30,660 nucleotides of DNA. It comes from a virus. The DNA lies in IMG/VR virus record IMGVR_UViG_3300020027_000273, positions 1-30,660 of that record. One strand, given 5' to 3'. Of the stretch, positions 4,514-22,218 are shown piece after piece. The position numbers and the translations under genes were made by a program. Below the pieces are notes generated by a model. It was given only the letters and a program-made list of their open reading frames with translations. It did not search any database and had not been told where the DNA came from. Every line of letters starts with the position of its first letter. The stretch's first letter is position 1.

Positions 4514-4530
4514 ATTCTTACTAAAACCAT

Positions 4531-5031
4531 TTAACTAAATATTATTTCAAACTGCTTGCCTGCCAACTTGTACTTGTTGACGTCCGCTTTCATTCTAACC
4601 TCTTGTGAGGTCAATGATACGGGTGCTTTAACAACGAAGTCAATTCCATCTGGCAACCCTGTACTATTCTCTCCTTCGATGTAAAGAAAACTTTGTGTTG
4701 CGCCTGTCTCCGGTTCGGTATATAGGTAGACTGGTGCTTGTCCCTCGCCCTCAACATACCAGTAAGCAGAGTTGTTTTGCTCATGTTGTATAATGATCCT
4801 TCTTAAACTTGGATCATATCTATCATTGAGCATCTTCTCCATGTAGATGGTCTGGCCATTGTAAGACAGTTCTACCAAAGCCTGATCTTTAAATGCATTG
4901 AATCTATCTTGTGAATAGTTAATGCCAGACAACAACGTCTCATACCAATTGAGATTGGTCGGGTTTCTCCACCTTGGAGGTGTTAACCTCTTAACAAGTT
5001 TCGAAAGGTTGTATCTGTATATCTGCTGCAT
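4531..5031 (-). CDS. Putative baseplate/tail protein in the gpI position
   Basis: A 166-residue protein starting 2 bp after the J-like gene stops, which suggests translational coupling. I do not recognise a domain. The N-terminus (NLSKLVKRLTPPRWRNP) resembles the start of proteins that follow baseplate J in other Bacteroidota prophages, and the rest is beta-rich (SAYWYVEGEGQAPVYLYTE). In P2-like phages the gene between J and the fibre encodes tail protein I, which links fibre and baseplate. The role is inferred from order alone. Confidence 0.6.
   Translation of the reverse strand: MQQIYRYNLSKLVKRLTPPRWRNPTNLNWYETLLSGINYSQDRFNAFKDQALVELSYNGQTIYMEKMLNDRYDPSLRRIIIQHEQNNSAYWYVEGEGQAPVYLYTEPETGATQSFLYIEGENSTGLPDGIDFVVKAPVSLTSQEVRMKADVNKYKLAGKQFEIIFS
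4535..4542 (-). promoter_or_regulatory. Variant late element ATATTTAG before the tail fibre gene
   Basis: One base away from GTATTTAG. It lies 21 nt upstream of the fibre start at 4513 and overlaps the end of the preceding gene. Confidence 0.25.
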
Positions 5032-5033
5032 GG

Positions 5034-5846
5034 TTATACCCCTGTGTAACTAATCAGTTCGTCGAATGAATAAGGTGAATCCGCTTCATTAATGTACCCC
5101 GCTGGCAGTTCAATGATCCTACCAACTGGCACAATGTCAAAACCAGTTTTGATACAAAGGTTGTCAACAGACACATCGTTCACGCCTGTTACATTTTGAA
5201 TTGTGTCGATCACATCATTGAGTCTCACTTTGCCATCGAATGGCAAAGACTTCATGTACGTTCTTAAAGCCAGTTCGACCGCATCTTTCACAACGGATGG
5301 GTCGTAGATTGAATCATAATAAACGGTTGTTCCTGACATAATCAATTGATCCGAGGCAAGAGAAACTATGTTGATCTTAGTCCCTGCTAATTTGATCTTG
5401 GTTATATACTTCGTGAATTGTGTCTTCTCTTGCGCTGTCAGTGCTTCCAAATCACCCGAAGAAACATTCTCCTTCGCTACCTTGATGAAAAGCGTTGATC
5501 CAGAATTCTCTGTTACCGATACTGCTTTAATGATCTGGCTTGTCGGATCATTCACAGGATAACTAAACCGTGTGCCTTGAAGTGTAAGGTCATAACCTAA
5601 CTGAAATTCGAGAGCCCGGTTATAATACCATTCGGGAGTTCCTATGAAATTGTTCCTGATCAACTCCGTTACTTCAGACTCGAACCTATCTTGGATAATC
5701 TCCAAGTTCTGTTGTGCATTGCTTGCAACGAAAACCCAGTTGCGCCAAATGGCCGCCTTTGAGGTTGAATTCAGTGAGTTCAATTCCGCTCTGGAATTCT
5801 TATCGCTAAATATGCTTTGTGCTATTTCTGTAAACGTTCTTGCCAT
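5034..5846 (-). CDS. Baseplate J-like protein
   Basis: A 270-residue protein of the baseplate J family, which forms the baseplate wedge in P2/Mu-type contractile tails. Supporting features are an N-terminal helical part (AQQNLEIIQDRFESEVTELI), the central beta region, and the C-terminal VKDAVELALRTYMKSLPFDGKVRLNDVIDTI..VTGVNDVSV pattern, which is the typical end of J proteins (a transition into the VxxVxV strand). It follows a small ORF and precedes a gpI-position gene, consistent with P2 order. The start at 5846 has GTATTTAG 7 nt upstream. Confidence 0.85.
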   Translation of the reverse strand: MARTFTEIAQSIFSDKNSRAELNSLNSTSKAAIWRNWVFVASNAQQNLEIIQDRFESEVTELIRNNFIGTPEWYYNRALEFQLGYDLTLQGTRFSYPVNDPTSQIIKAVSVTENSGSTLFIKVAKENVSSGDLEALTAQEKTQFTKYITKIKLAGTKINIVSLASDQLIMSGTTVYYDSIYDPSVVKDAVELALRTYMKSLPFDGKVRLNDVIDTIQNVTGVNDVSVDNLCIKTGFDIVPVGRIIELPAGYINEADSPYSFDELISYTGV

Positions 5847-5853
5847 GCTGATA

Positions 5854-5861
5854 CTAAATAC
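5854..5861 (-). promoter_or_regulatory. Candidate late element GTATTTAG before baseplate J
   Basis: Seven nucleotides upstream of the J start codon. It overlaps the stop codon of the small upstream ORF. Confidence 0.45.
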
Positions 5862-6030
5862 TATAGAACTGGACTAATTTCATATTCAATGCGCTTGCGT
5901 ACCAACGCTTTAGAACTTTGGTGCTATGATTTGGGTTGAACTTTATTCCTTTGCGTCTAGCATAGCCACCTAAATATTTATTAATAACCCTAATGCCACA
6001 TAGTCGAGTTGAAATCTTCATTATCTGCAT
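5854..6030 (-). CDS. Small basic protein of unknown function
   Basis: An ORF of 58 codons from ATG at 6030 (a second ATG lies at 6021) between the sigma-like gene and baseplate J. The protein is strongly basic (GGYARRKGIKFNPNHS..LKRWYASALNMKL) and has no family I recognise. The frame stays open upstream to 6153 inside the sigma-like gene, but the part beyond 6030 has poor composition, so the shorter form is preferred. It fills the 258-bp gap between two solid genes on the same strand. It may be non-coding. Confidence 0.4.
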   Translation of the reverse strand: MQIMKISTRLCGIRVINKYLGGYARRKGIKFNPNHSTKVLKRWYASALNMKLVQFYSI

Positions 6031-6104
6031 CCTTCGTCTAATTCTGCTAATACTAATCTTAGTTCGTATTAATAGGCACAGAGATAAGTACGCCTTCGAA
6101 AAAT

Positions 6105-6677
6105 CTACTTTTCTTCGGACAGATTTATAAGGACAGACAGAATGGAAACACAACCTTTGTCATAGGCGAACTCTCTCCTTTTCTTCAACAATTGCGCTAA
6201 CGCTTCGTTATATCTTTCTTCATCGAACTCATCGTTTTCATCTGAGACAATAACTGCTTTAGGTACAATAACACCTTCATCATTAACTGAGTATTCATCA
6301 ATCGATTCAAATACGTATCTCTCCTTTTTCTTTTTCTCTTGTCTCGATAGACTTAGTTTGTCCAGATAATAGTATTTGATACAAGCCTGAAAGTAACTAT
6401 AGGACTTTCCTTCATCGGGATTGTACTTAACCATCCCACGTTCGAAAACATGAGTGATTACATCCAGCACTAAATCAGTATTGTAATATTTACCGAAGTA
6501 TCGTTTGAGAATGGCATCAGCCATTGCATGTAATTGAGGATAGATATATCTTCCAAAGATGATGCTTCGTTTAATATGATCTGATTCATTCTTAAACGCT
6601 CGTATTGCATTGTCCTGTTCTTCGCCCCAATACTGCCCCCTCGCTGTAACCAGTTTTCTCTTTCTTCCCAACTTCAC
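6105..6677 (-). CDS. T4 gp55-like late-transcription sigma factor
   Basis: A 190-residue protein starting at GTG (6677). Residues about 24-125 follow the sigma region 2 pattern seen in T4 gp55: a helix with AIRAFK, a second with GRYIYPQLHAMADAILKRYF, then DLVLDVITHVFERGMVKYNP, then SYSYFQACIKYYYLDKLSLS followed by the basic RQEKKKKERY. In T4 gp55 the corresponding part reads [24 protein letters not shown]. An acidic tail follows and no region 4 is seen, again like gp55, which replaces the host sigma factor on core RNA polymerase at late promoters. It sits inside the baseplate cluster. The family call rests on remembered gp55 sequence and pattern, so it is likely but not certain. Confidence 0.55.
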   Translation of the reverse strand: MKLGRKRKLVTARGQYWGEEQDNAIRAFKNESDHIKRSIIFGRYIYPQLHAMADAILKRYFGKYYNTDLVLDVITHVFERGMVKYNPDEGKSYSYFQACIKYYYLDKLSLSRQEKKKKERYVFESIDEYSVNDEGVIVPKAVIVSDENDEFDEERYNEALAQLLKKRREFAYDKGCVSILSVLINLSEEK

Positions 6678-6699
6678 TTCGTGATTTACTCCAAGATGT

Positions 6700-6707
6700 T
6701 ATTTATA
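6700..6707 (-). promoter_or_regulatory. TATAAATA, identical to the T4 late-promoter core, before the sigma-like gene
   Basis: On the coding strand TATAAATA ends 22 nt upstream of the GTG start of the gp55-like gene and overlaps the stop codon of the fibre-like gene. It differs from the GTATTTA element found elsewhere, so it may be coincidence in AT-rich DNA. Confidence 0.3.
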
Positions 6708-7332
6708 CAAAAGATGATACCAGCCATTTGTTTATTGATGAAATGAACATTACTTCAAAGGCACCATAGTTTGAGTTGATGACTGCGAAACTATCCCCCT
6801 CAATCAACTTGCCGTTCCCGTTTACTGTCACGTTATGGGCGAGACCATTTCCCGAATCCTTAAACCTTACAGCCTGTTTGTTCAAAGGGCTAGCCGGTAG
6901 GTCGATATTGAGTGCATTGCTGCCAGTGTTACAGATAACAAGAAAGTTTCCCGTATTGCTTATTGAGGTGTTCCCCGATACAATCAGGATCGTTGTTTCA
7001 CCTGAGTAGGTGTTGGTGATCGTCTTATATGTCCCGTCTCCTGCTAGGTAGGCATTGCCTCCAAGATCATTACGAACGATTCCGATCTTTGCTTTCTCGG
7101 CAGCCGTTACAAACTTATGAGCGGTGATCGTATCTGAAATATCATCGGCATTCAGCGTAATAGTATTGCCTGTCTTGCCATTGACCGTAATGGTCTTCAG
7201 CGCAAGGACATCAGATACTTTCCTTTTGTAAGTATAAACATCCGCAGTTGGCTCACTATTGTAGAGGGCTAGGTAGTCGTTAAGGTCTAACTGACTGCTA
7301 TCTTCTAAATCTATAATTCTTTTTGTACTCAC
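6703..7332 (-). CDS. Phage tail/fibre-like structural protein
   Basis: A 209-residue protein starting at GTG (7332). The N-terminus STKRIIDLEDSSQLDLNDYL ALYNSE is the anchoring start seen in many Bacteroidota phage fibre-like proteins. It is followed by an NGKTGNTITLNADDI segment of the type seen in short tail fibres, and a C-terminal beta-rich domain with repeated strands (ILIVSGNTSISNTGNFLVIC, then AVINSNYGAFEVMFI). It lies after the LysM/SprB protein in the baseplate region. A role as a baseplate spike cap or adhesin is inferred. The 47-bp leader has no GTATTTA element. Confidence 0.6.
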   Translation of the reverse strand: MSTKRIIDLEDSSQLDLNDYLALYNSEPTADVYTYKRKVSDVLALKTITVNGKTGNTITLNADDISDTITAHKFVTAAEKAKIGIVRNDLGGNAYLAGDGTYKTITNTYSGETTILIVSGNTSISNTGNFLVICNTGSNALNIDLPASPLNKQAVRFKDSGNGLAHNVTVNGNGKLIEGDSFAVINSNYGAFEVMFISSINKWLVSSFV

Positions 7333-7379
7333 TCTGTTCGCATGTTCATCCGTTTATATTATGTTCTACTTTACGATAC

Positions 7380-7949
7380 CTATACAACTATCAAGTTACC
7401 ATGATCGTCCGTGACGAAATTTCCGAAATCATCAACTAGATAAGTATTGTTGTCCTGCGTAGATATGGTTAGGTTACTAAGTGTCACCTCTGTACCATCC
7501 GCGTCTATTACCGTCACGGAGTATGTGCCACCGGGAACAGCAACAAGGTTCTGACTGTTTGAAATAACCTGATCTGTATCCTGATTCTTCCATACGAATT
7601 GGAATGGTGCTTTACCTCCCATGATGTCAATTAAAATGAATCCATCACCCCCCACATTCTCGTTGCCAATCTGTTTTAGAATAATTTGAAGAGCACCTAT
7701 AATTCCAGTATCCTCGTAATCTGAATTATTGATAGTTGCCGGATAACGATTGAAATATTCTGTGATGGTGTTTGCACTCAGCGCGAGCCCATCCCTTATC
7801 AAGAGAACCTGACCTCCCTCTATATCAGTATCTAAGCCATCGGTGAAAGCATTATCGTCTACTAGTTCCCACACTCTGCTAATTGACCCGTACAGGTTTA
7901 CTGAAACGTCATAAATTGATTGACCATATTGTACTTCGTACTCCCTCAT
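7380..7949 (-). CDS. LysM/gpX-like tail protein with a SprB-like repeat
   Basis: A 189-residue protein with three parts. Residues 1-52 (YEVQYGQSIYDVSVNLYGSI ..VWELVDDN..GGQVLLI) resemble the LysM-type fold of P2 tail protein X. Residues about 108-160 (DIMGGKAPFQFVW..NLVAVPGGTYSVTVIDADG) match the SprB repeat of Bacteroidota gliding adhesins, of the form GGxxPYxYxW...GTYxVTVTDxxG. The C-terminus repeats DDFGNFV and DDHGNLIV. The start overlaps the upstream gene stop (TAATG), showing coupling. A baseplate or surface-decoration role is inferred from the LysM part and the gene order. Confidence 0.65.
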   Translation of the reverse strand: MREYEVQYGQSIYDVSVNLYGSISRVWELVDDNAFTDGLDTDIEGGQVLLIRDGLALSANTITEYFNRYPATINNSDYEDTGIIGALQIILKQIGNENVGGDGFILIDIMGGKAPFQFVWKNQDTDQVISNSQNLVAVPGGTYSVTVIDADGTEVTLSNLTISTQDNNTYLVDDFGNFVTDDHGNLIVV

Positions 7950-8266
7950 TATCCTTCTTCGTTTCTGCTGGTCTTCAATGTTATGTTGAATTGATCATTG
8001 TCAGTTTGCTGCTTTACGGCGACGCTAACCACATTGATGTTATCCTTTTGAAATTCCTTTCTTATAAGCCTTTCAAGTTCGGGTTTGCTTACTGGTGAAT
8101 TCTGAAAGTTTGTAATACCTACGCCTAAGTCTGGGAATTCTAAAAAATTACCTTTGTTCGCGTATAGTATCTCAGTCTCATCCTGCAAATCCGTATCGTC
8201 AACAAAGAAGTCACCCTGTCGTGTGACGAATTGATGGGTTACAATATTTAGTTTTATTCCTTTCAT
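7949..8266 (-). CDS. gp25-like (gpW) baseplate wedge protein
   Basis: A 105-residue protein in the position between spike and LysM protein that P2 W or T4 gp25 homologues take. Its N-terminal half contains FLEFPDLGVGITNFQNSPVS, resembling the gp25-family pattern of a glycine-rich strand followed by a helix. The second half (ELERLIRKEFQKDNINVVSV AVKQQ) gives the helix and final strands seen in that family. Length fits (100-130). It starts 2 bp after the upstream stop. The assignment is moderate, based on order and a short pattern. Confidence 0.55.
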   Translation of the reverse strand: MKGIKLNIVTHQFVTRQGDFFVDDTDLQDETEILYANKGNFLEFPDLGVGITNFQNSPVSKPELERLIRKEFQKDNINVVSVAVKQQTDNDQFNITLKTSRNEEG

Positions 8267-8268
8267 GC

Positions 8269-8511
8269 TTAACTAATAGCATTGTCGACAACAGCCGGAA
8301 CGCTTTGCGTCTGTGTGGCTGCTGATCCTGTGGTAATTATTGCTCCGCTCGGTATTGTAACTGTTGCTGATTGAATGGTTTCAATTATCCATTCAGCCAT
8401 TGCCTGAGCGTATTGTTCCTTTACATTTCCATCCGGTGAGGAATGGTCAAAGACCAACGCTTCTAACTTTTCCTTGAATGAGTTCTTAATTGATGTTTCG
8501 TCTAGTGCCAT
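8269..8511 (-). CDS. Small conserved-looking baseplate-region protein
   Basis: An 80-residue protein between the spike and gp25-like genes, coupled to both (gaps of 2 bp). The N-terminal half is helical (IKNSFKEKLEALVFDHSS.. QAMAEWIIETIQSATV) and the C-terminal half is Ser/Thr/Ala/Val-rich. No family recognised. Because it lies inside an uninterrupted baseplate operon it is probably a structural or assembly protein. Confidence 0.65.
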   Translation of the reverse strand: MALDETSIKNSFKEKLEALVFDHSSPDGNVKEQYAQAMAEWIIETIQSATVTIPSGAIITTGSAATQTQSVPAVVDNAIS

Positions 8512-8513
8512 AT

Positions 8514-8993
8514 TTATTGAAGGGTGCCAAGTATTTTGTCCAAGGCGTTATTAAGGTCTGTTATGTTTATAGGAGTTGAAGATTGACCGTGCACCGTCAT
8601 CACGGTTAGATTTGCCAAGGCAGTCTTTAGGTCTTCCATGCCGTCTTTCAGGTCATTCGCACCCACGGTTAATTTTAGACCGGTCCCATCCAGTTTAAAA
8701 TCTGTATTATCAAATAACATGGAGATAGAATCAATCTCGCTGAACATAAGAACATGGGGTTGTTCGTTGGCTGTCTGACCAACGATAACAAAACTTCCTA
8801 TGGTAGGGATTGGAATTATGCCAGACGTAGGACTCTCCACAGCCGACAACCTGACTTCTAAAATCTCTGGCTGATCGTCCAAGGGCTGAACCGTACATGT
8901 CTTGGATGACATATCAACATCGGTTACACTGCCAAGTATTGACTCAAATATGTCTTGTTTGGCAAGTTTTTGAATTGCATTCCTGATTTCCAT
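8514..8993 (-). CDS. Baseplate spike protein, gpV / gp45-like
   Basis: A 159-residue protein. Residues about 17-85 form an OB-fold-like beta segment (SILGSVTDVDMSSKTCTVQP ..VRLSAVESPTSGIIPIPTIGSFVIVGQ), typical of gpV/Gp5-type spikes, which includes the PTIGSFVIVG strand. A C-terminal region with DNTDFKLDGTGLKLTVGAND fits a short beta-helix or trimerisation part. It follows the hub gene, the usual order. The start has GTATTTAT 5 nt upstream. Function: central membrane-piercing spike of the contractile tail. Confidence 0.7.
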   Translation of the reverse strand: MEIRNAIQKLAKQDIFESILGSVTDVDMSSKTCTVQPLDDQPEILEVRLSAVESPTSGIIPIPTIGSFVIVGQTANEQPHVLMFSEIDSISMLFDNTDFKLDGTGLKLTVGANDLKDGMEDLKTALANLTVMTVHGQSSTPINITDLNNALDKILGTLQ

Positions 8994-8998
8994 CGAAG

Positions 8999-9006
8999 AT
9001 AAATAC
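8999..9006 (-). promoter_or_regulatory. Candidate late element GTATTTAT before the spike gene
   Basis: Five nucleotides upstream of the ATG at 8993. If it were a -10 element the transcript would begin at or next to the start codon. Confidence 0.45.
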
Positions 9007-9010
9007 TTTC

Positions 9011-9967
9011 CTAGACCCGTTCCGCTAACTCGATAGCCTGTCTAAATCCCGAAGTTCCAAAGGTGGTTTGTACTGCCTTGACTATATATCGGCCTGAACG
9101 TTCTTTGAAGAAATTGTCCGTTAGATTTACGATGTCGCCATGCTGGACATTGGGTTGTCCAAAAGTCGTGAATGATCCTGCATAGCCATCAAATTTGAAA
9201 TCAGTCAGGGCTTTGTTTGCCCTCTCTTCAAGTGTGGCTTTGTCAACATTGTAGAAGTGTATGGTTCGCTCAGTGCCTTCAAGATCGCCTTTGACTACTT
9301 CAATTTTGCTATTGTCTGGGAGAATAGAAGTCGCCTTAACCGAGAACTTGACATCCTCTGACTTCACGAACTCCAACGAGTTGTCAATGACATGCTTTTG
9401 GAAATGGAAATTGTGTTCTTTTTGTAATTCTGGAAAATAATTCAAACCCATGTAAAGAGTGCTATCCCTGAACCAACCATTTATTGAAAACTTATCTGAA
9501 AGATATTTAAGAATCTGTGAGGCAGTCACCTTGGTAAATCTTGCCTTTCCGAGCGTGATCTCACCGGGTAATTTGTATTGGATACCTGAAGGAAGAATAT
9601 CTTTCAACAGTTGATCCAATGAAAGTTTAGGATACGAAAGATTGAATGGTTTCGTCTCCTTCAGTAGGTATGCTGAGTCTTCACAAAAAATCTTTGTTGG
9701 AATTCCTGACTCTATACGCGTCACAAAGCCAGTGAACACAATTTGTTTGTTGTCATATCCGTAACCAAGTTTGACAACTACTTTGTCTCCCTTATTGAAC
9801 AAAGCATCCTTATCAACAAACACACTCTTTCCTTTGAACGATAATTTTCGTGGAATCGTAATCGTGCAAGTGTCCGTCAACGTTTCGTATGAAGAATTAA
9901 TTTCGACTTGTCCAATCTGCTTGAAAATGTAACTACCAATATGAACTTCAGAACTTAGAACTAACAT
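9011..9967 (-). CDS. Baseplate hub protein, late control D / gp27-like
   Basis: A 318-residue protein with the features of hub proteins of the late control D family. It has an N-terminal tail-tube-like fold (SEVHIGSYIFKQIGQVEINS, then TDTCTITIPRK), a GDKVVVKLGYGYD..IVFTGFVTRIE segment, and a C-terminal QPNVQHGDIVNLTDNFFKER..RYIVKAVQTTFG stretch close to the conserved end of D and T4 gp27 proteins. The hub connects the tail tube to the spike. It follows a tape-measure/initiator pair and precedes the spike. A weak AT-rich variant (AATATTTC) lies before the start. Confidence 0.8.
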   Translation of the reverse strand: MLVLSSEVHIGSYIFKQIGQVEINSSYETLTDTCTITIPRKLSFKGKSVFVDKDALFNKGDKVVVKLGYGYDNKQIVFTGFVTRIESGIPTKIFCEDSAYLLKETKPFNLSYPKLSLDQLLKDILPSGIQYKLPGEITLGKARFTKVTASQILKYLSDKFSINGWFRDSTLYMGLNYFPELQKEHNFHFQKHVIDNSLEFVKSEDVKFSVKATSILPDNSKIEVVKGDLEGTERTIHFYNVDKATLEERANKALTDFKFDGYAGSFTTFGQPNVQHGDIVNLTDNFFKERSGRYIVKAVQTTFGTSGFRQAIELAERV

Positions 9968-9979
9968 TGCATGAAATAT

Positions 9980-10552
9980 TTAACCGATGTTATTTTCTTC
10001 TGAAATCTCAAGATCGTATGGCTGATCGCTTACGCATGACAACGAGAATTGGACAAGCCCACGTTTTCCTTGAACCTCTGAGATTGAATAAGAGTTAACC
10101 ACAATATTGTATATACCGAAGTCATTTAAGAACGATGACACCTCAAGTGAGGTCTTTGCATTGGTGAGTCTTATCAAAACGTTCTTTTCTTCAACAGGCG
10201 CGACATTGATGAGATTCGAAATCAAAAGGCCGGAAATCTGAACTCGGTAGTCTCTATTGGAAATCAACTCTTTAATTGTGCCATCTCTTCCCTGCACTTC
10301 AGTTTCGACAATGTTCTTATCTCCTGAGACTTCAAATAGAGCACTATCAACACGCAAGCCAGAATATTTTATTATCTGTCCTGTTACTGGGTCTTGATAT
10401 TGTCCGTTCTTCAATTGTAAGTTTGAATAGATTGGAGTGCCTAAGTATGATGTGGCAATTGCTTGATCCGGCTCATAGGTAGACGGCTGTATCTTGTTTA
10501 CTCTTGTGTAGACAACATCGATTACGTTATCTTTAATAATGTTTAAAGCCAT
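9980..10552 (-). CDS. Tail/baseplate initiator-position protein (DUF6046-like)
   Basis: A 190-residue protein whose ATG overlaps the tape-measure stop by one base (TAATG). It lies between tape measure and hub, where LysM-type or DNA-circulation-type proteins sit in other contractile tails. The sequence contains VQISGLLISNLINVAPVEEK followed by FGIYNIVVNSYSI and a C-terminal LVQFSLSCVSDQPYDL. From memory this resembles DUF6046, a Bacteroidota phage family; I cannot confirm it. A structural role joining tube and hub is inferred from order. Confidence 0.6.
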   Translation of the reverse strand: MALNIIKDNVIDVVYTRVNKIQPSTYEPDQAIATSYLGTPIYSNLQLKNGQYQDPVTGQIIKYSGLRVDSALFEVSGDKNIVETEVQGRDGTIKELISNRDYRVQISGLLISNLINVAPVEEKNVLIRLTNAKTSLEVSSFLNDFGIYNIVVNSYSISEVQGKRGLVQFSLSCVSDQPYDLEISEENNIG

Positions 10553-12480: not shown

Positions 12481-12506
12481 CGTTCATTACTGCTATCAAC
12501 TTCATG

Positions 12507-13045
12507 TTATTTTTTATCGGGACTCTCGAAGATTCGACACCAGACAAATTCAGACCACAGTTTTGCAAATTCATTCTTGGATAAAGTCGAAGGATCAATT
12601 TTATAATGGTATCTGAGGAGTGCCATTTGCTTTCTTAGAGAGTCAATATTTTTGCTTGGCACAAGCGACCAAAACCTTAAATGTTGGTTGAGGTCGCTGA
12701 TATGTTTGGGATGATCTTCTGTATCTCCCTGTTAATGGCAATGGAGAATCCTATTTTGCCTGCTAGTTCAAGTAATTCATCATCGCCACCAACGAAGCAG
12801 GTTCTGAACATACCCACGCTAGAACTTACCGGAGCCGATTGAAGTGTGCTTAATGTTGCATCGAGTTCAGCCAAATTCGGTTCTCTTAGATATGCGACCA
12901 AAATTTCCTTTTTAACGGTAAACACAATCTTGGTTATGTCGCCAAATTGTTTCTTGAGTTTTTCCTCAAGCAATTTGTAATCCTTCTTGCCAGTAGTAGG
13001 TTGTAGTTTTTCTTGTGATTCTTCCTGCTGTTGTTCCTTCTTCAT
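12507..13045 (-). CDS. Tail assembly chaperone frameshift product (G-T type)
   Basis: Predicted -1 fusion of the chaperone ORF with an overlapping frame too short to stand out alone. Translation in frame 0 reaches ATC CCA AAC; slippage on CCCAAAC moves to CCC AAA CAT and continues HISDLNQHLRFWSLVPSK and QMALLRYHYKIDPSTLSK up to the stop at 12507-12509. The result is about 179 residues. The extension has clear coding character (FAKLWSEFVW) and ends just before the tape measure, as T domains do in lambda and many tailed phages. The fusion chaperones the tape measure during tail assembly. Known for the class; here inferred from sequence. Confidence 0.75.
12677..13045 (-). CDS. Tail assembly chaperone, frame 0 (G type)
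   Basis: A 122-residue protein, N-terminally Gln/Glu/Lys-rich (MKKEQQQEESQEKLQ). The core TKIVFTVKKEILVAYLREPN..LDATLSTLQ.. resembles the first domain of tail chaperones: a pair of beta strands then helices. It is placed between tail tube and tape measure, which is diagnostic. In other phages most ribosomes make this form and a minority frameshift to the longer form. GTATTTAG lies 17 nt upstream of the start and a terminator separates it from the tail tube gene. Confidence 0.75.
   Translation of the reverse strand: MKKEQQQEESQEKLQPTTGKKDYKLLEEKLKKQFGDITKIVFTVKKEILVAYLREPNLAELDATLSTLQSAPVSSSVGMFRTCFVGGDDELLELAGKIGFSIAINREIQKIIPNISATSTNI
12704..12710 (-). other. Slippery heptamer CCCAAAC for -1 frameshifting
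   Basis: On the coding strand it is C CCA AAC in the chaperone reading frame, matching X XXY YYZ exactly, and lies 24 nt before the frame-0 stop. The -1 frame is open on both sides. Confidence 0.75.
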
Positions 13046-13062
13046 AAGTGTTTTTCTTTCAT

Positions 13063-13070
13063 CTAAATAC
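13063..13070 (-). promoter_or_regulatory. Candidate late element GTATTTAG before the tail chaperone gene
   Basis: Seventeen nucleotides upstream of the start at 13045. It lies just downstream of the terminator at 13101-13130, which suggests that transcription is restarted here. Confidence 0.5.
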
Positions 13071-13100
13071 TAGCCCACATCGCCAAAAAAGAATGGACAT

Positions 13101-13130
13101 AAAAAACCACCGTACCTTTCGACACGGTGG
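13101..13130 (-). terminator. Rho-independent terminator after the tail tube gene
   Basis: Read on the minus strand, CCACCGT and ACGGTGG form a perfect 7-bp stem with a 10-nt loop, followed by six T. It lies 38 bp after the tail tube stop. It should cut abundant tube/sheath transcription before the chaperone and tape measure genes. Confidence 0.85.
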
Positions 13131-13167
13131 CGGGAAGAACTAATTCAGCAGAAATAGTCTTGTTATC

Positions 13168-13630
13168 TTAAATCCAAGGTTGATTGCCTCGTTTAATGCC
13201 TGCAATAATCAATGGGAGTTCGACGCTGATAACCTTGTCGTTCTGTGAGATTGATGTTGGATTGCTTGTGAACTGAACATTTTTTAACACTTCAGTTGTG
13301 ATTTTATCGGCAATATCAGAACGGTAGGACACTACAATTTCAAAATGGAGACATTAAAGTGATGTCACCAAAAGGTGCTGCATCTTGCAATCTCTTTACT
13401 TCATCTTTAAAGAGAGTAATACTTGCCTCATAGGTAACATTACCTGATGAACGCGCCACGGGCTGGTCACCAGCACCGGGTATATTTTCAAATTCACGAG
13501 ATGAAGAATAGTTGATCGCAGTAACTCCAATCATTGGAGTTGTCATGTTGCTAAACTGTGTTCTTATTTGCGCCCAGTTGTATGTCGACCCATTTATCAG
13601 GGTTGGTATTTCGTTAGGTATAACTTTCAT
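13168..13630 (-). CDS. Tail tube protein, split by a +1 frame change at TTT TGA
   Basis: Frame 0 runs from 13630 for 96 codons and stops at TGA (13340-13342) after LMSPF. The +1 frame continues without a break in sense: EIVVSYRSDIADKITTEVLK, then PTSISQNDKVISVELPLIIA and GNQPWI to the stop at 13168. Joined, it is about 153 residues, the normal size for a contractile tail tube protein, and it lies directly after the sheath gene. The switch can occur at CCA TTT TGA by re-pairing of tRNA-Phe on TTTT, with TGA in the A site, like the RF2 site CTT TGA. A single-base insertion in the T4 run is the alternative. GTATTTAG lies 14 nt upstream of the start. Confidence 0.75.
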
Positions 13631-13644
13631 AGTTAATATTTAAT

Positions 13645-13652
13645 CTAAATAC
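13645..13652 (-). promoter_or_regulatory. Candidate late element GTATTTAG before the tail tube gene
   Basis: Fourteen nucleotides upstream of the ATG at 13630. It lies immediately after the stop of the sheath gene. Confidence 0.45.
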
Positions 13653-13654
13653 GA

Positions 13655-14806
13655 TTACGCTAGACTAACTGCGAAACCAAGAGTTATGTTTATGAAACGA
13701 GCCACACCAACTGGTTGAATCTTTACATCAATATGAAGAGTATCATCACTAAGAACGTCTTGATTCGGGTTGATATAAATTCGATAGTTTGAAACTTCTC
13801 CCAATCTTCTCATTCCGTCTAATGCCTGCTCACATTTTGAAGTGAACTTGCCGACAGTTTCGATTCTAAGTTTTCCGTCATCATCGAGATACAACGGACT
13901 ATTGAGTTCTGGAAGCAACGCAGTTCGTAGAAGTTTACGCGCTTTGTTGATTACTCTGTTTCTTTCGAGAGAATAGTAATCACTTGCCTCGCTGTTTGCT
14001 ACAAACGAACTGTTGAAAAAACTGCCGTTCAGGCCATAATCTTTCAACAAGAAGATATACTTTTTGTCGTTCAATTGTGCTTGCTGTGTCTTAGTGACCA
14101 GTTTGTACTGTACACCGTTGGAAAAAGCGAGAGTGTTAAGTTCTGAACCGGGCATATCAAATTGTCCCTTCCATGATATTGACTCATGAACTGAACTAGA
14201 TGCTAATGCCCCAAGAGCAGCACCCAAAATTCCAACAGAGTAACCCTGTGTGTTATAAAGTGCAAAGCCTTTGTTTCCACCATCTTGTCCGATGGTAACT
14301 GCCACTTGTGGACAGTCATTACTAGAAAGGTCAGGCAATGATTGCAATGTCATGCCAGTTGTATTTGCTTGAAGGATAGATACAAGAGGAATGTCAAGTT
14401 CTTCTTTCAACTCAGTCATGATGTCCTGCAATGCAGTTACCATGCTACTGGAAAGATTGCGCTTCGTATAGATTCCAACTTGAGACAAATCTCCGTCACA
14501 ATCAGACACTAAATCCTTTACTTCTTCAAATGTGTGCGTACCACCAGTTGGGTAGTCAGCAAATCTCACTTGGAGTTGTCCAGAATCATTGACTCTGTAG
14601 AACTCCGATAAGTGGTAGTGTGGAACGGGCAAAGAAGTGGATGTAATCCCGTAGCCTTCAACCTCCTGAATACTGAACACTTGAAAAGTGTCACCAGTCA
14701 AGGGGTTTGAAGAAACATAGAATAACAAACCAGATTTGTTATCCTCGCTGGTAAGAATTCTATTACTGCCTTCCTGTTCGACTATTGATATTTTTGATAA
14801 TGCCAT
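13655..14806 (-). CDS. Tail sheath protein (DUF2586-like)
   Basis: A 383-residue protein upstream of the tail tube gene. It resembles, from memory, DUF2586-type sheath proteins of Bacteroidota phages. Visible features are an N-terminal beta domain (ISIVEQEGSNRILTSEDNKS GLLFYV), a central VAVTIGQDGGNKGFALYN region, and a C-terminal domain with RVINKARKLLRTALLPELNS and VKIQPVGVARFINITLGFAV. The last is typical of sheath C-termini, which interlock along the tail. Presence of sheath, J, gp25-like and hub genes makes the tail contractile. Confidence 0.75.
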   Translation of the reverse strand: MALSKISIVEQEGSNRILTSEDNKSGLLFYVSSNPLTGDTFQVFSIQEVEGYGITSTSLPVPHYHLSEFYRVNDSGQLQVRFADYPTGGTHTFEEVKDLVSDCDGDLSQVGIYTKRNLSSSMVTALQDIMTELKEELDIPLVSILQANTTGMTLQSLPDLSSNDCPQVAVTIGQDGGNKGFALYNTQGYSVGILGAALGALASSSVHESISWKGQFDMPGSELNTLAFSNGVQYKLVTKTQQAQLNDKKYIFLLKDYGLNGSFFNSSFVANSEASDYYSLERNRVINKARKLLRTALLPELNSPLYLDDDGKLRIETVGKFTSKCEQALDGMRRLGEVSNYRIYINPNQDVLSDDTLHIDVKIQPVGVARFINITLGFAVSLA

Positions 14807-14819
14807 TATTTAATGATTC

Positions 14820-14917
14820 ATTATTTTATGTTATGTATCGTTCAACCACGTAGTGGGTTTCAAAGCAAGGATTTTAACCCTTGCCCTTAACCCCTTTCAT
14901 TGTGGCTAAACAAGAAA
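14820..14917 (-). terminator. Weak hairpin(s) between capsid and sheath genes
   Basis: The 111-bp gap after the capsid gene holds, on the minus strand, GCAAGG and CCTTGC around an 8-nt loop, followed only by TTTG, and a small CCAC-TAC-GTGG hairpin. It could be a weak terminator or an mRNA-stabilising structure after the strongly expressed capsid gene. Confidence 0.3.
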
Positions 14918-15859
14918 TTACTTGTATCTGATTGCGACTTCTTCAGGCTTCACAAATGCTACACCGGCAGAAAGAACCATCTTAGCAAAGAACTTCTCAG
15001 AGTTATTTTGAAGTTTTTCAACTTTCAAAGTATCGGCATCCTGAACGCTGTTAACTGCCATCCATAGATCAGAAGAAACTGAGTTGTTACCAGCCGCAAA
15101 AATGAATGCATCATCTGAGACGTAGGCTTGTGGAACTACAGTAATACCAGCAAACATTTTTGGTGTTGCCTGTTCGTAAGAGATTGACTTGTTTGTCAAC
15201 GCCTTCAATGCTGCACCGTAAAGTTCAAATGTCTTGTAGGACATGAAGACTTTCATCTCTGGCTTATATGAAGCAATTCTGAAAGCATCGCTAGAACCAC
15301 GAGCAGTTGTTAGAGCAGCGTCAATAGTTGCCAAGATGTTGCCACTAGTAAGTGTAACACCGGATATCTTGACTGTGTCAGGATCGGTCTTCGCCAGTTT
15401 TTCGAAACCGTCAAAGTATTTCACGTCAGTTGAAAGAGCAGTGTCACCCTTCCAAGATATTTTTGACATGTGGCCACCTGTCTCATTAAAGACAAGCCCA
15501 AGCATAGTAGACTGAACGTCAGTCGGGAGTGAATGAAATAAGAATTCGCCTCCTGCGGGGGTATAAGGTGCCCAATATTGTTTGAGGTCAATTGGAAGAA
15601 ACTCTTGATAGAGCATCCATTTGCCAAGTGTTATTTTTCTGTCTTTGAACTGCTGTCCACCAAGCGGTGAAGAAGGAGTTGCGGCGTAATCCTGAATACT
15701 TGAGACAGTGTTATACGCAGTTGGAATGTTATATTTTCCTGAGATCGCTCCACCCTCAACGTGAATGTGAGGAAGAGTATCGTTTTCTTTTAAAAATCTG
15801 GCAATTAATCCTGAATAAAAATTCTCTTGTAACGTGTTGCCGGTAACTATTAATGACAT
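14918..15859 (-). CDS. Major capsid protein (HK97-fold type)
   Basis: A 313-residue protein directly after the protease/scaffold gene. Consistent features are an N-terminal arm, an E-loop-like segment (NTVSSIQDYAATPSSPLGGQ), a spine-helix region (TSGNILATIDAALTTARGSS) and the P-domain pattern MKVFMSYKTFELYGAALKAL, with a C-terminal FAAGNNSVSSDLWMAVNS strand. No sequence-specific signature is strong, so the call rests on size, position and overall pattern. An AT-rich AAATAAATAA lies about 30 nt upstream, not the GTATTTA element. Confidence 0.8.
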   Translation of the reverse strand: MSLIVTGNTLQENFYSGLIARFLKENDTLPHIHVEGGAISGKYNIPTAYNTVSSIQDYAATPSSPLGGQQFKDRKITLGKWMLYQEFLPIDLKQYWAPYTPAGGEFLFHSLPTDVQSTMLGLVFNETGGHMSKISWKGDTALSTDVKYFDGFEKLAKTDPDTVKISGVTLTSGNILATIDAALTTARGSSDAFRIASYKPEMKVFMSYKTFELYGAALKALTNKSISYEQATPKMFAGITVVPQAYVSDDAFIFAAGNNSVSSDLWMAVNSVQDADTLKVEKLQNNSEKFFAKMVLSAGVAFVKPEEVAIRYK

Positions 15860-15892
15860 CTTAAATCATGTACTTTAATTCTTTTGGGTTAT

Positions 15893-16315
15893 TTATTTGG
15901 TTAACATCAATTCTTGAATTGGATCAAGTTTGAATGGTCTTTGTTCTTCAGAGGTTTTTCCATCTGTGTCGATGATGTCTGACAATTTTTCGGTTTTTGT
16001 AAGAGCCTTAATGGCTTTACTTCCATTGTCAAAGTCGGTATCCAGAATAGACTTCCAGATCACCTTTCCTTCTGCATTAATCTGTCTGTTCTTGACAGCA
16101 TCTTCGAGAAGATTATTAATTTCAGATTCTCTCTTTGCCTTTTCTTTGGCTTCGAATGAGTCGACCTTTGCTTGCAATTCATTGATCTTAGTATCTCTGT
16201 TGGAGAGTTCCTGTGCTTTGATCGCAATTGCGTTTGTCATTTCCTGAACTTTCGCCATGACATCCTTCTCAGATGCGTCCGGTTGAAGACTCAAGACGTT
16301 TAGAATTTCTTCCAT
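15893..16315 (-). CDS. Possible internally initiated scaffold protein
   Basis: An in-frame ATG at 16315 begins MEEILNVLSLQPDASEKDVM, just where the protease domain ends and the coiled-coil scaffold begins. The 15 nt before it read GATAAATATACACGC, an AT-rich element reminiscent of the other phage starts. Separate translation of a scaffold from the 3' part of a protease gene is known in lambda; here it is inferred. Confidence 0.35.
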   Translation of the reverse strand: MEEILNVLSLQPDASEKDVMAKVQEMTNAIAIKAQELSNRDTKINELQAKVDSFEAKEKAKRESEINNLLEDAVKNRQINAEGKVIWKSILDTDFDNGSKAIKALTKTEKLSDIIDTDGKTSEEQRPFKLDPIQELMLTK

Positions 16316-16927
16316 GCGTGTATATTTATCTTTTAGGTTATTTATTTCATTAAATGAAGCGGAAGCAACTAGTTGCCTTACCTCGTGTTGATAACTGTCA
16401 ACCATTGACAGTTTGGTATTGATTAACTCTGTAGCCAAATTTTCTTGTAAGGCTTGTTTTGCTGTAAACCAAGTATCCTTGGACATCCAGTTCTTAATCT
16501 TATCCTTCGCTCTCTTGGTCACTGCCTTTACCAGATCGTAAATATTCTGATTGGTGTTTACCAACGCATCGTCAGTAGAACCATCGCTGTACTTAGCAGA
16601 ATGAAGCATCAACTGAGAATAGGAATACATTTTCCTTTTTGATCCTGCCAAGAATATCAACGCTGCCATGCTTGCGCCGACCGCATCAATAATTGTAGTA
16701 ACTGGCTTCGAAGAATTGGAAATCTTTGTGATTAAAGGAAGTCCCTTATAAACGCTGCCTCCCAAGGAATTGATTAATATCTCTATCTCATCAATTGAAT
16801 CGTCAGACTCCAATGCTTCGAACTCAATCAAAAACCTCTCGGATGTGTAGCCCTCAGAGTCTATTTCATTAAACAATCGCATTTTGCCAATGCGATTCTC
16901 TTTTGCTACAATGAATTTGTTTTCCAT
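15893..16927 (-). CDS. ClpP-like head maturation protease fused to scaffold
   Basis: From ATG at 16927 (344 residues; an upstream ATG at 16942 lies before the GTATTTA element and is less likely). Residues 1-175 form an S14 ClpP-like protease: LINSLGGSVYKG (oxyanion strand), nucleophile S86 in GASMA, H109 in LMLHS and D151 in KDTWFTA, which matches the position of the ClpP aspartate. Residues about 205-344 form a charged coiled coil typical of scaffolds. Met205 (16315) gives a possible internal start for a free scaffold of 140 residues, as in lambda C/Nu3. It would cleave scaffold and itself during prohead maturation. It directly precedes the capsid gene. Confidence 0.85.
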   Translation of the reverse strand: MENKFIVAKENRIGKMRLFNEIDSEGYTSERFLIEFEALESDDSIDEIEILINSLGGSVYKGLPLITKISNSSKPVTTIIDAVGASMAALIFLAGSKRKMYSYSQLMLHSAKYSDGSTDDALVNTNQNIYDLVKAVTKRAKDKIKNWMSKDTWFTAKQALQENLATELINTKLSMVDSYQHEVRQLVASASFNEINNLKDKYTRMEEILNVLSLQPDASEKDVMAKVQEMTNAIAIKAQELSNRDTKINELQAKVDSFEAKEKAKRESEINNLLEDAVKNRQINAEGKVIWKSILDTDFDNGSKAIKALTKTEKLSDIIDTDGKTSEEQRPFKLDPIQELMLTK

Positions 16928-16932
16928 TGAAT

Positions 16933-16940
16933 TTAAATAC
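16933..16940 (-). promoter_or_regulatory. Candidate late element GTATTTAA before the protease gene
   Basis: Five nucleotides upstream of the ATG at 16927. It supports that start over the ATG at 16942. It also lies in the short gap to the divergent plus-strand gene at 16949. Confidence 0.45.
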
Positions 16941-16948
16941 ACGCAACG

Positions 16949-17218
16949 ATGAAAAAGGAAAGGTTTACGGTAAGACTAAATTTGTTACATGCTGTATTTA
17001 TCTCCATGCATGAGACAGCGAACAGAATAAACGTTCTTCAGCAAGAACTTATGGGAGCAATTGAAATAAGAAATGGTGCGATCAGGAAACGTTACACGGA
17101 GATGTATAACATCAATACTTGGTACATGATCAAACTCAATTACGTTTACTCACAGATTGCAAAGGAGTTCGACTTGAAGGCAGCAACGGTCAAGAACATT
17201 ATTCTCTACAAAAAATAA
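16949..17218 (+). CDS. Small plus-strand protein with HTH-like C-terminus, antisense within the late operon
   Basis: An 89-residue protein encoded between portal and protease but on the opposite strand. The C-terminal IKLNYVYSQIAKEFDLKAAT VKNII looks like a helix-turn-helix of the kind that reads IAxxFxLxxxTVxxI. The N-terminal half is helical (SMHETANRINVLQQELMGAI). It has its own downstream terminator on the plus strand. It could be a small DNA-binding regulator or moron expressed in the lysogen. The family is not recognised. Confidence 0.6.
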   Translation: MKKERFTVRLNLLHAVFISMHETANRINVLQQELMGAIEIRNGAIRKRYTEMYNINTWYMIKLNYVYSQIAKEFDLKAATVKNIILYKK

Positions 17219-17275
17219 TGATTTGCAAAAGGCGAAGTATTTACTTTTGAAAATCGTTCAAATTTTCGGCTACGG

Positions 17276-17308
17276 GGAAGAGGGTGTCATTGCGGCATCC
17301 TCTTTTTT
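17276..17308 (+). terminator. Rho-independent terminator for the antisense small gene
   Basis: On the plus strand AAGAGGGTG pairs with CATCCTCTT (one G-T wobble) around TCATTGCGG and runs into a T6 tract. It lies 4 bp before the convergent end of the portal gene. Confidence 0.75.
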
Positions 17309-17311
17309 CAT

Positions 17312-19333
17312 TTACAGCAATCCATCAATTTCCTTCTTGTCTTCCTTGGAAAGTATCTTGAGATATGGGTGGTTCTTTGAAAACAGTTCCCCTGTCTTTC
17401 CCGGATTAAATCTAAAGTCGGGAGCAGCGATCTTCTTATATTCACTTCGCTCCTTCGCTGTTAACTTTGCTGGCTTTGCGTTCGGGACGGCAACTAGACG
17501 ACACCTACAATTCCAATCGAACGGAGGCACAAGAGAATTAAACAATGAATCATTCTTTTTAAGGATAAGTCCTTCCAACTTAGCATGTGATGGTCTTACT
17601 CTAGCATCCCCTACAGTTGAAAACATTAGCATGTCATCATTGTCATAGGATAGCCAATCACTTGCGGATTGCGCCTGACTGATTGCGGACTGGTATTCTG
17701 TTTTGAGATGGTTCTTGTTGAACTCCAACCCAATCTTTTTGCACTCCTGCTTGAACTGGCTGAACGATCTAAGATTCTTACCTTCGAAAAGCAGATCGTT
17801 GAACGACTGTACCAGTGCCTTATTCTTGCCACCAGTGAAATAGTAAATGTTTTGCTTCAACGCTGCAATAAAGTCAAGGTCTTCTGAATCAAAATTTGGA
17901 TTTGACAAATCTCCATCGAAGTTGAAAGAATCGAAGACTGCCTTTGACATGAGGTCGCCAACTCGTCGAATGTATTCCGGGTCTAATGGATTTACGTTAT
18001 TAGAGTAAACATCGCTTATGATCTGGTCAACGATGCTTTCCAACTCTCGGTTATACAAATCATCAACCTCGGACTCTACCGAATTGATAATGTCATGGGA
18101 GCAATTATCGTGGTGCTTATAGTATTCTTTTAGTTCGGCTAGTAGTTGTCCCGATTGGTTTGGACTTTTTTTTTGAAAGCCGTTGTCAGGAACGGACTGT
18201 TGTGTTGGCATCAACTCCACATCGAACGGTAAATCAAGATATTGCTTGATATCTTCACCTTCTGCTTGGTAGCCCGATAGTGTCAACTGATTTATTGTAT
18301 CCAACCTTTCTTGGTACGATCTCTTTTCCTTCGATATGAACTTGAAATGTGAGTTCTCAAGTCTGTAACCTAGAGCAATAAGTTTAGGGAATACAATATC
18401 GTTAATAATATAGGTCATGTATTCACGATCTGAATCAGATACTTCATCAGCAACGCGTTCATGAACCTCAGATTGTGACCTAGATGAACCATCATCCGTT
18501 GTCATGGTAACCGACAAAACCGCCTTCGACATTTCAGAATTACACAGGTTGATAAGTTCCGAGTATATTTTATGCGCATCGGTTGATGACGTGGCAATGA
18601 TCTCCAATTCATCGCTAAGGCCGGTCACAATATTGCGATTGGTAATCAGCCTTTGCATGTCTGCCTGATACTTGGCAGTCTGGTCGCGGTTATCTGTTTT
18701 CAAAACCGTCATCGGAATTCCAAATGTTTGCGCGTGGTCTCCCCACATGGCAATCGTAATACGTTTGATCAATGCATGCACCACCACGCTATTAAGGATT
18801 CCAAGATTCTGGGAGTCAACAAGGATATAATAATCAGAGTCATTGCGGCCATCGATAGGAATTAGTTGACCTAGATTAACCTGATATGGATTTTTAACGA
18901 TTGAGCGAAGTTCTGGAATTACGTTACCTCTTGAAATTAGTTTAACGTCCTTGATCTCACTATCGATCAATTCTTGAATCTCAACAAGGGAATAGCCGTA
19001 AAACTTTGAGTCTATGATTGCTTCCTGCAATTTATTGAACCATTGTTTTGAGAATAGTTTTGTTAGTTCGTCATCAATGTTGCCTCTATCATCCATTACA
19101 GCGAATTCCTCGCCAAGAACCTTTGACTTTCTCTGTTGGATCACACTGGATAAATGCGGATCAAGAAGTATTGAATCGTAAATATCTTGAAGAGGTTTTT
19201 TTATTGGAACCTGTATCTGTCCGTTGATCCTTTGAAGTTCCGCTCTTATGTGAGCACTGACCCAAGCCTGAATTGTTTTTCTTGAACGGTCGTAATATAT
19301 ATCTAGTTTGTCCGATAGTTTGTCTTCTGCCAT
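17312..19333 (-). CDS. Portal protein (DUF935/Mu gp29-like) fused to a MuF head morphogenesis domain
   Basis: A 673-residue protein. The N-terminal 400 residues resemble Mu-type portals (DUF935): DPHLSSVIQQRKSKVLGEEF, YGYSLVEIQ, then VVHALIKRITIAMWGDHAQT FGIPM and LSVTMTTDDGSSRSQSEVHE. The last 150 residues form a MuF domain of the SPP1 gp7 / Mu F type, with STVGDARVRPSHAKLEGLIL and the conserved PPFDWNCRCRLVAVP. Portal forms the DNA channel; MuF proteins bind the portal inside the head. In Mu these are separate genes. The start has GTATTTAA 4 nt upstream. Confidence 0.85.
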   Translation of the reverse strand: MAEDKLSDKLDIYYDRSRKTIQAWVSAHIRAELQRINGQIQVPIKKPLQDIYDSILLDPHLSSVIQQRKSKVLGEEFAVMDDRGNIDDELTKLFSKQWFNKLQEAIIDSKFYGYSLVEIQELIDSEIKDVKLISRGNVIPELRSIVKNPYQVNLGQLIPIDGRNDSDYYILVDSQNLGILNSVVVHALIKRITIAMWGDHAQTFGIPMTVLKTDNRDQTAKYQADMQRLITNRNIVTGLSDELEIIATSSTDAHKIYSELINLCNSEMSKAVLSVTMTTDDGSSRSQSEVHERVADEVSDSDREYMTYIINDIVFPKLIALGYRLENSHFKFISKEKRSYQERLDTINQLTLSGYQAEGEDIKQYLDLPFDVELMPTQQSVPDNGFQKKSPNQSGQLLAELKEYYKHHDNCSHDIINSVESEVDDLYNRELESIVDQIISDVYSNNVNPLDPEYIRRVGDLMSKAVFDSFNFDGDLSNPNFDSEDLDFIAALKQNIYYFTGGKNKALVQSFNDLLFEGKNLRSFSQFKQECKKIGLEFNKNHLKTEYQSAISQAQSASDWLSYDNDDMLMFSTVGDARVRPSHAKLEGLILKKNDSLFNSLVPPFDWNCRCRLVAVPNAKPAKLTAKERSEYKKIAAPDFRFNPGKTGELFSKNHPYLKILSKEDKKEIDGLL

Positions 19334-19337
19334 GTAG

Positions 19338-19345
19338 TTAAATAC
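19338..19345 (-). promoter_or_regulatory. Candidate late element GTATTTAA before the portal gene
   Basis: Four nucleotides upstream of the ATG at 19333, in the 33-bp gap after the connector gene. Confidence 0.45.
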
Positions 19346-19366
19346 TTGGCAGGATTCGATTCACCG

Positions 19367-19924
19367 TTAGTAATAAAGACCTATTCCACTATCGGGTTTG
19401 CCAGTGATATAGATGTTATATGTTCGGTCTTCGAGTTCTGGAAAGTCTGGACTTAACTTCTCGCATTGAATATTTTTTAGGAACATCATCACTTCTTGGT
19501 AAGAATTGGTGCGATGAACCGGAATGTTTTCCGGGCTGATACGTTCGTGAAGTTTATACAGTGAAATAGTTACCAACCAATCAACTATCAACGGGTATCT
19601 TGGTTCAACCATCATCCAATCAAATGAACCGGGCAGGGATGTCGTGGCCGACACTGGTGAATAGAGTAAGGCGCTGAAATTATCACCAGACGTAAACCAT
19701 ACCGTGTCACCGCTAAAGTATGTTTGGCCGTGCTGGTAAGTAGGGTATGATTTGTAAAGCGCATTCAGGTCATACCTCTTTCTCAAGTATAGGGAAATGA
19801 CTTCTTGAGCCTTTATCTCGCTGTCTAGGATCGACAGGTCTGGGTTCGAGTCTTCCTCAACCAAGGTGGTTAAATCGTCCTCACTAATTTTATACTTATA
19901 ATCAGAATCTCGAAGGTATCGCAT
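19367..19924 (-). CDS. Head-tail connector, Gp36-like (DUF1320 type)
   Basis: From ATG at 19924, 185 residues. The frame is open up to 20041, but the start at 19924 begins MRYLRDSDYKYKISEDDLTT L, the usual N-terminus of Mu Gp36-like connectors, and GTATTTAT lies 4 nt before it. Helical N-terminal part with DSEIKAQEVISLYLRKRYDL, a beta insertion (YFSGDTVWFTSGDNFSALLY), and C-terminal IVDWLVTISLYKLHERISPE plus YQEVMMFLKNI. The family pairs with DUF935 portals. It is the first gene of the minus-strand structural block. Confidence 0.7.
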   Translation of the reverse strand: MRYLRDSDYKYKISEDDLTTLVEEDSNPDLSILDSEIKAQEVISLYLRKRYDLNALYKSYPTYQHGQTYFSGDTVWFTSGDNFSALLYSPVSATTSLPGSFDWMMVEPRYPLIVDWLVTISLYKLHERISPENIPVHRTNSYQEVMMFLKNIQCEKLSPDFPELEDRTYNIYITGKPDSGIGLYY

Positions 19925-19928
19925 GGAG

Positions 19929-19936
19929 ATAAATAC
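19929..19936 (-). promoter_or_regulatory. Candidate late element GTATTTAT before the connector gene
   Basis: Four nucleotides upstream of the ATG at 19924. It decides this start over longer in-frame options, and it is the first late element of the block. Confidence 0.45.
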
Positions 19937-20077
19937 CCAGACATATTTGAGAATTCGACGGTTTTTGTTTATTTCGAACAACTGAATTTCACTCCCCACC
20001 CGGTCGCAATAGACCCCCAGCCCATCCATAGGTGAGTTCAACGTTTTTACTGAACTATACTAACCCCCTATATACCT

Positions 20078-20371: not shown

Positions 20372-20375
20372 CAGA

Positions 20376-21383: not shown

Positions 21384-21401
21384 ACGCAAAACTAAAAGAA
21401 A

Positions 21402-22214: not shown

Positions 22215-22218
22215 TGAC

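Follow-up and report, generated by a model that had tools for sequence, protein, structure and literature searches.

What directs the late genes of the phage in IMG/VR record IMGVR_UViG_3300020027_000273, where the heptamer GTATTTA stands shortly before several virion genes and a gp55-like sigma factor is encoded among the baseplate genes? The whole record, 30660 bases long and possibly a fragment, was analysed and is referred to here as the window. Between 3.3 and 20 kb its minus strand is filled with Mu-like virion genes: a connector, a portal fused to a Mu F domain, a Clp-like protease, capsid, sheath and tube, together with tape measure, hub, protein D, baseplate genes and a fibre. The answer favoured here, and considered fairly probable, is that a gp55-type late sigma factor reads a -10-type element of its own, GTATTTA(nnTnCA), giving leaderless or near-leaderless mRNAs.

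All seven GTATTTA sites listed in the original prediction are exact and lie on the minus strand. They precede, with element and gene coordinates in this order and the ATG at the higher gene coordinate, the connector (head-tail adaptor, Mu gp36-like, with a PHROG match; 19930..19936, 19367..19924), the portal fused to a Mu F-like domain (portal-MuF; 19339..19345, 17312..19333), the Clp-like head maturation protease (16934..16940, 15893..16927), the tail tube gene (13646..13652, 13340..13630), a gene in tail-chaperone position whose sole match is a PHROG of unknown function (13064..13070, 12677..13045), a spike gene (9000..9006, 8514..8993) and a J-like baseplate wedge gene (5855..5861, 5034..5846). 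The spike gene keeps its earlier label, gpV-like; it has no match in PHROG or Pfam, and its homologues are similarly placed in relatives. Five of the predicted gene starts stand and two were corrected, the protease to ATG 16927 and the connector to ATG 19924, which is residue 40 of an open reading frame (ORF) opening with TTG and the point where the PHROG match begins. The spacing to the start codon, given earlier as 4-17 nt, measures 5, 5, 6, 15, 18, 6 and 8 nt. An eighth copy lies on the plus strand in the protease-portal interval (16994..17000), 5 nt ahead of ATG 17006 of a 70-aa ORF (17006..17218, plus strand) that matched no family in Pfam or PHROG, and an identical 15-mer (GTATTTATCTCCATG) precedes the starts of this ORF and of the connector gene. 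In addition, the variant ATATTTA (4536..4542, minus strand) occurs 22 nt upstream of the fibre gene ATG at 4513, with matching downstream bases.

The element is specific to late genes and does not reflect chance. The window contains 13 copies of GTATTTA where 4.7 would be expected (sd 2.2), and none of 100 shuffles reaches 13. Within 3337-20041, all seven minus-strand copies end 5-18 nt upstream of late-gene starts, although 2.2% of that 16.7 kb lies so close (18 nt or less) to a late start. GTATTTA is enriched over shuffled and random controls: 7/19 late genes carry the word within 30 nt upstream, above every shuffle, since the best 7-mer peaked at five genes in 2000 dinucleotide shuffles (in two of them) and at four genes in 2000 sets of random minus-strand 30-mers. 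Among other minus-strand ATGs, 2/306 have GTATTTA within 30 nt, both adjoining elements already counted, and it is found within 30 nt upstream of none of the window's 13 remaining genes, which include the terminase pair. Late genes packed against an upstream gene lack the element (0/5), whereas it is present at 7/14 of those preceded by a gap of 12 nt or more. The copies at 17237 and 25925, both on the plus strand, are compatible with chance; the latter (25925-25931) lies 57 nt upstream of the ORF for the terminase small subunit, does not have the extended downstream bases and may be fortuitous. The resemblance to a reversed T4 element that had been remarked on carries no weight: the reverse and the reverse complement of GTATTTA are each absent from the 30 nt upstream of the 19 late genes. 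As a separate observation, ATAACAT occurs upstream of 4/19 late genes (sheath, tape measure, protein D and sigma), none of which has GTATTTA; this word is borderline, as some word reaches at least four genes in 49/2000 shuffles, and ATAACCT precedes the sheath and tape measure genes in the nearest relative, introduced below.

The bases that follow the heptamer are informative about its role. When the six bases 3' of GTATTTA are aligned over the eight sites, the consensus is nnTnCA, with T at 7/8 and C at 6/8, and the sixth base is A at 7/8 and a purine at 8/8 wherever the ATG falls: at three sites it is the A of the ATG itself, and it is A in 4/5 of the sites where the ATG lies elsewhere. The information content of this hexamer is 5.38 bits against 2.33 expected, a value reached by 1/20000 simulated sets under a null that retains the ATG-derived A at the three sites concerned. 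The seven minus-strand sites alone give 5.28 bits against 2.53 expected (13/20000 sets), and the five sites with the ATG elsewhere give 6.12 against 3.37 (59/20000 sets). The pattern GTATTTAnnTn[CA][AG], which was fitted to these sites, has seven matches in the window, each preceding a gene start, and matches none of the five other GTATTTA copies; the J-like site misses at the conserved T. Conservation in register with the element rather than with the start codon is predicted by a promoter with a fixed start site and is unlike the prediction for a ribosome-binding element. The purine and the conserved hexamer fit a -10 box with a fixed transcription start. Over the 40 nt preceding the eight sites, no 4- to 6-mer is shared beyond the level of shuffles, and no conserved -35 block was seen.

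A further part of this anatomy is found in the interval between the tube gene and the chaperone-position gene, where a terminator-like hairpin with an 11-bp stem and a T run (13106..13131, minus strand; -16.0 kcal/mol, z -3.3) is followed by GTATTTA and, 18 nt on, by the start of the chaperone-position gene. The nearest relative, a 5.9 kb contig (L143) whose sheath is 77% identical to that of the window, folds a hairpin at the equivalent place (14 pairs, -19.1 kcal/mol, z -6.2; 0/200 shuffles as good) and has GTATTTAGA at the chaperone-position gene while the surrounding spacer has diverged. Taken together, a core, a conserved discriminator, a purine at a fixed position and a terminator-like hairpin ahead of one element support a promoter-like anatomy. 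The tail tube gene in this region was also found to have a broken reading frame relative to L143, in which the gene is intact; the homologous C-terminal part sits in another frame, downstream to about 13170.

The putative reader of the element is encoded at 6105..6677 on the minus strand, among baseplate genes, as a protein of 190 aa. The claim that a gp55-like sigma factor is present is borne out by a match to phrog_234 (E=7e-4), the family that T4 gp55 itself matches with 234 bits (E=3e-69), and by a profile built from homologues in phages (immuto, Mel-JY01, LR756508 and the sequences L250, L251 and L140), which finds the window protein at E=9e-21 among 302 sequences. A seven-member profile of these sigma factors aligns with T4 gp55 over 141 columns at E=1.1e-4, with a probability of only 57. 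These sequence comparisons support placing the protein with the T4 gp55 family, as a distant relative. Sigma70_r2 was matched by 2/4 aligned family members (best E 2.7e-5), and T4 gp55 reached only E=0.087. Sequence searches of the Protein Data Bank (PDB) with the protein and its family returned nothing significant, and a single-sequence structure model was poor (mean pLDDT 40.8). The immuto sigma gene likewise lies a few genes ahead of annotated baseplate genes, and those of L250 and L251 lie among baseplate-like genes by our own reading of the translations. Among 30 window proteins scanned with PHROGs, none matched gp33 or a sliding clamp, in a record that may be incomplete. A continuation of the sigma C-terminus in another frame was considered and rejected, as a separate search of that piece was unmatched, and weak sigma matches in two genome sequences (G074, G031) were read as ECF-type sigma factors adjoining host genes.

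Relatives of the phage offer a comparison in which both parts of the proposed system can be followed. In 84 relatives, late-gene starts were taken from one best match per gene and locus, excluding matches that began past query residue 60, lacked a start codon or lay less than 40 nt from a contig end. GTATTTA occurs within 30 nt upstream of 3/454 such starts, which are not independent because several contigs are near-duplicates, and letter shuffles gave a mean of 1.5 and a maximum of 8 in 200; the best 7-mer inside any single relative is common to at most three late genes. A sigma-family profile search of the same 84 relatives found no homologue, an absence that is firm only for the five with complete titles (L004, L005, L006, L008, L009), as many of the contigs are fragments. 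The comparison with relatives proposed earlier shows an element that is not enriched where no sigma factor was found. Among the Winoviridae-like sequences examined, GTATTTA is enriched solely in the window phage, and L143 keeps one copy.

Phages that carry homologous sigma factors were compared as well. Immuto (NC_055915) is a Flavobacterium phage of 160 kb with T4-like head genes, of which three 50 kb stretches were sampled; starts were hand-picked (56 late and 66 other, the latter including endolysin and holin genes), giving 59 late intervals. Here, TATTTATA occurs within 45 nt upstream of 14/27 late genes preceded by a gap of 25 nt or more compared with 1/32 packed ones, while any 8-mer peaks at 7 in 1000 random sets, and in the 50 nt upstream it is found at 15/56 late and 5/66 other genes (p=0.006). 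Immuto thus shares with the window phage a homologous sigma gene near baseplate genes and a sense-strand TATTTA core upstream of late genes, but its element is without the G, extends to TATTTATAA and lies mostly 12-32 nt upstream, in a much larger phage. The earlier remark that no similar system was known in Bacteroidota phages is corrected by this related late element. Among the papers listed by a search of open-access literature on phage late promoters, gp55, TATTTATA and Flavobacterium or Bacteroidetes phages, no report of such a system was found. The T4 late system (gp55, gp33, gp45) resembles that of the window in a sigma-like protein of the same PHROG, one AT-rich box without a -35 block and late virion genes. 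The T4 promoter has an 8-base box starting at -13, one turn upstream of the start, and no -35 block (PMC2988020). The T4 box is TATAAATA, found in a like analysis of hand-picked T4 genes at 7/11 of those preceded by a gap of 17 nt or more, whereas the window box is GTATTTA, nearer to the start codon and with little or no leader. With one TATAAATA in the window against seven GTATTTA late sites, the T4-type word is not used as a late-promoter set in this phage; the single copy lies at 6707 (minus strand), just upstream of the sigma gene and overlapping the preceding stop. Cyanophage S-PM2, with the late promoter NATAAATA (PMC2984593), also has a T4-type late box upstream of virion genes; it differs from the window phage in retaining the T4 word and in its hosts. 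Two other signals were noted in these phages: in the G369 phage (L238-L239), AGAGAGA lies in the start region of 17/53 ORFs, positioned like a Shine-Dalgarno sequence, and in the Microcystis phage Mel-JY01 (L255), TAACAGGA lies upstream of 7/25 genes outside the late list, exceeding the 8-mer maximum of 6 in 300 random sets, and may be an early or middle signal.

From these comparisons, it is probable that the sigma factor reads GTATTTA. In the proposed mechanism, host RNA polymerase with the phage gp55-like sigma would recognise TATTTA, placed at about -11 to -6, without needing a conserved -35 block, and RNA would start on the purine six bases downstream. For the connector (predicted +1 at 19924), the portal (19333) and the small plus-strand ORF (17006), this would produce leaderless mRNAs whose first codon is AUG, whereas the predicted leaders measure 1 nt for the protease (16928) and for the spike (8994, a G), 3 nt for the J-like gene (5849), 10 nt for the tube (13640) and 13 nt for the chaperone-position gene (13058). 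Leaders would be nearly absent because the element sits 5-8 nt from most of the start codons that it serves, and the earlier comment on how little leader a -10 role would allow stands. Genes packed behind another gene would be carried within these operons. The start positions, leaderless translation and operons are predictions. Concerning the host, a study of Flavobacterium johnsoniae reports that A at -3 favours initiation and that the majority of transcripts have leaders (PMC6847099); in a host of this kind, leaderless mRNAs would thus be out of the ordinary. In the window, A at -3 is missing in all four genes with a spacing of 5-6 nt and present in 11/15 others (p=0.018, a small, post hoc test), as if this context were dispensable where there is no leader.

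Several findings weigh against this reading. The downstream consensus and the test of A at -3 are both post hoc, and the exact element is missing at seven late genes that have 12 nt or more of intergenic space before them, among them the major capsid, sheath and tape measure genes, so some late transcripts may lie outside the system. Pfam sigma-70 region 2 gave no match on the window sigma, which is also private to this record among the Winoviridae-like sequences examined. Of the phages with a homologous sigma, Mel-JY01 and LR756508 showed no late word in 50 kb of each (with hand-picked genes for Mel-JY01), and GTATTTA precedes 0/53 ORFs of the G369 phage; L250 and L251 offer too few intergenic gaps for judging late words. 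The sense-strand TATTTA core consequently accompanies the sigma family in 2/5 phages, the window phage counted. In L143, the tube element is not kept, the contig stops short of the sigma region and a simple terminator scan gave no hairpin where folding did, probably because the stem runs into the T run. Finally, the T4 geometry would put the start inside the ATG at the three sites with a spacing of 5 nt, so the sigma factor must use a shorter spacer. Overall, the private late-promoter system originally proposed is upheld in its late-specificity, its absence from relatives and its promoter-like anatomy, while the pairing of sigma and element stays at the strength of a probable interpretation.

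An explanation that competes with a phage-encoded reader is that GTATTTA serves as the -10 box for the primary sigma of the host, or for some other factor, with the gp55-like protein acting elsewhere. The link between sigma and element consists of their co-occurrence in one genome and the analogy with immuto, and the three other sigma-bearing phages without the word agree with such a separation. The primary promoter of Bacteroidota has the box TAnnTTTG, with TTTG near -33. This box misfits; TTTG is present in 2/8 of the upstream 40-mers, at -17 and -13, and the relatives without a detected sigma are also without the word, which leaves a host-read box unlikely. It is quite improbable that GTATTTA is instead a translation-initiation element in the mRNA leader, substituting for a Shine-Dalgarno sequence that host ribosomes ignore. 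A spacing of 5-8 nt at 5/7 late genes does resemble the distance of a ribosome-binding site, and Shine-Dalgarno sequences are lacking in Bacteroidota (PMC6847099), but the spacings at the tube and chaperone-position genes misfit, the conserved bases and purine track the element and not the ATG, the 13 other genes of the window do without it within 30 nt, as do the relatives apart from scattered cases, and the related word of immuto lies mostly 12-32 nt upstream. An operator for a phage regulator such as the product of the small plus-strand ORF, with transcription by a host sigma, has in its favour the 15-mer common to that ORF and the connector, as an autoregulated gene might have, and is hardly probable given a word of seven bases with no dyad, elements set against the start codon that leave little space for a downstream host promoter at five sites, the lack of a second common element above shuffles in the 40 nt upstream and an ORF unmatched in Pfam and PHROG.

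As for the phage that would use this system, it is probably a temperate, Mu-like phage of 30.7 kb. Its gene content points to a prophage (a weakly integrase-like gene together with a resolvase, an AbiC-like gene and a gene pair of IS21 type), and the host is presumed to belong to Bacteroidota. In the phage collection, the hub protein has its relatives in Flavobacterium and Winogradskyella phages, of which several have been assigned to Winoviridae, and in two faecal records; the portal is matched over a wider range, with records from Bacteroides, Porphyromonas and Vibrio among the hits. The core genes of Winoviridae include the Clp protease, sheath, protein D and head morphogenesis/portal genes (PMC8776804), and all four have homologues in L004, L005, L006 and L008. 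The Winoviridae Peternella, pippi8-1, FPSV-S1 and fF4 have homologues of the window phage's portal, protease, sheath, protein D and baseplate genes, about 21-38% identical, but unlike it they have neither a sigma homologue nor GTATTTA enrichment. The window capsid protein is unmatched in L004-L008 and matched in several of the viral contigs that were linked to the window through their hub protein, and the core neck protein was not identified in the window, where no search was aimed at it. The terminase was rejected as a lineage marker, given that other window proteins were matched in 2/80 viral and 5/49 genome loci. Outside the virion cluster, a putative abortive-infection gene lies at 2468-3334 on the plus strand (Pfam putAbiC, E 1.6e-10; PADLOC AbiP, E 3e-6), and four plus-strand genes between the connector and the resolvase (20078-23565), unmatched in Pfam and PADLOC and with a single weak match in PHROG, are possible cargo.

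Beyond this phage, it is tentatively proposed, as a generalisation somewhat short of probable, that Bacteroidota phages hold a branch of gp55-type sigma factors that reads a TATTTA-class box and not TATAAATA, and that in the window phage the promoter has moved right up to the start codon, which then also serves as the initiator of leaderless mRNAs for late virion proteins. If true, the gp55 switch moves between phage types and its box diversifies, with a 30.7 kb Mu-like phage and a cultured Flavobacterium phage as the two cases, and leaderless late translation in Bacteroidota would become directly testable.

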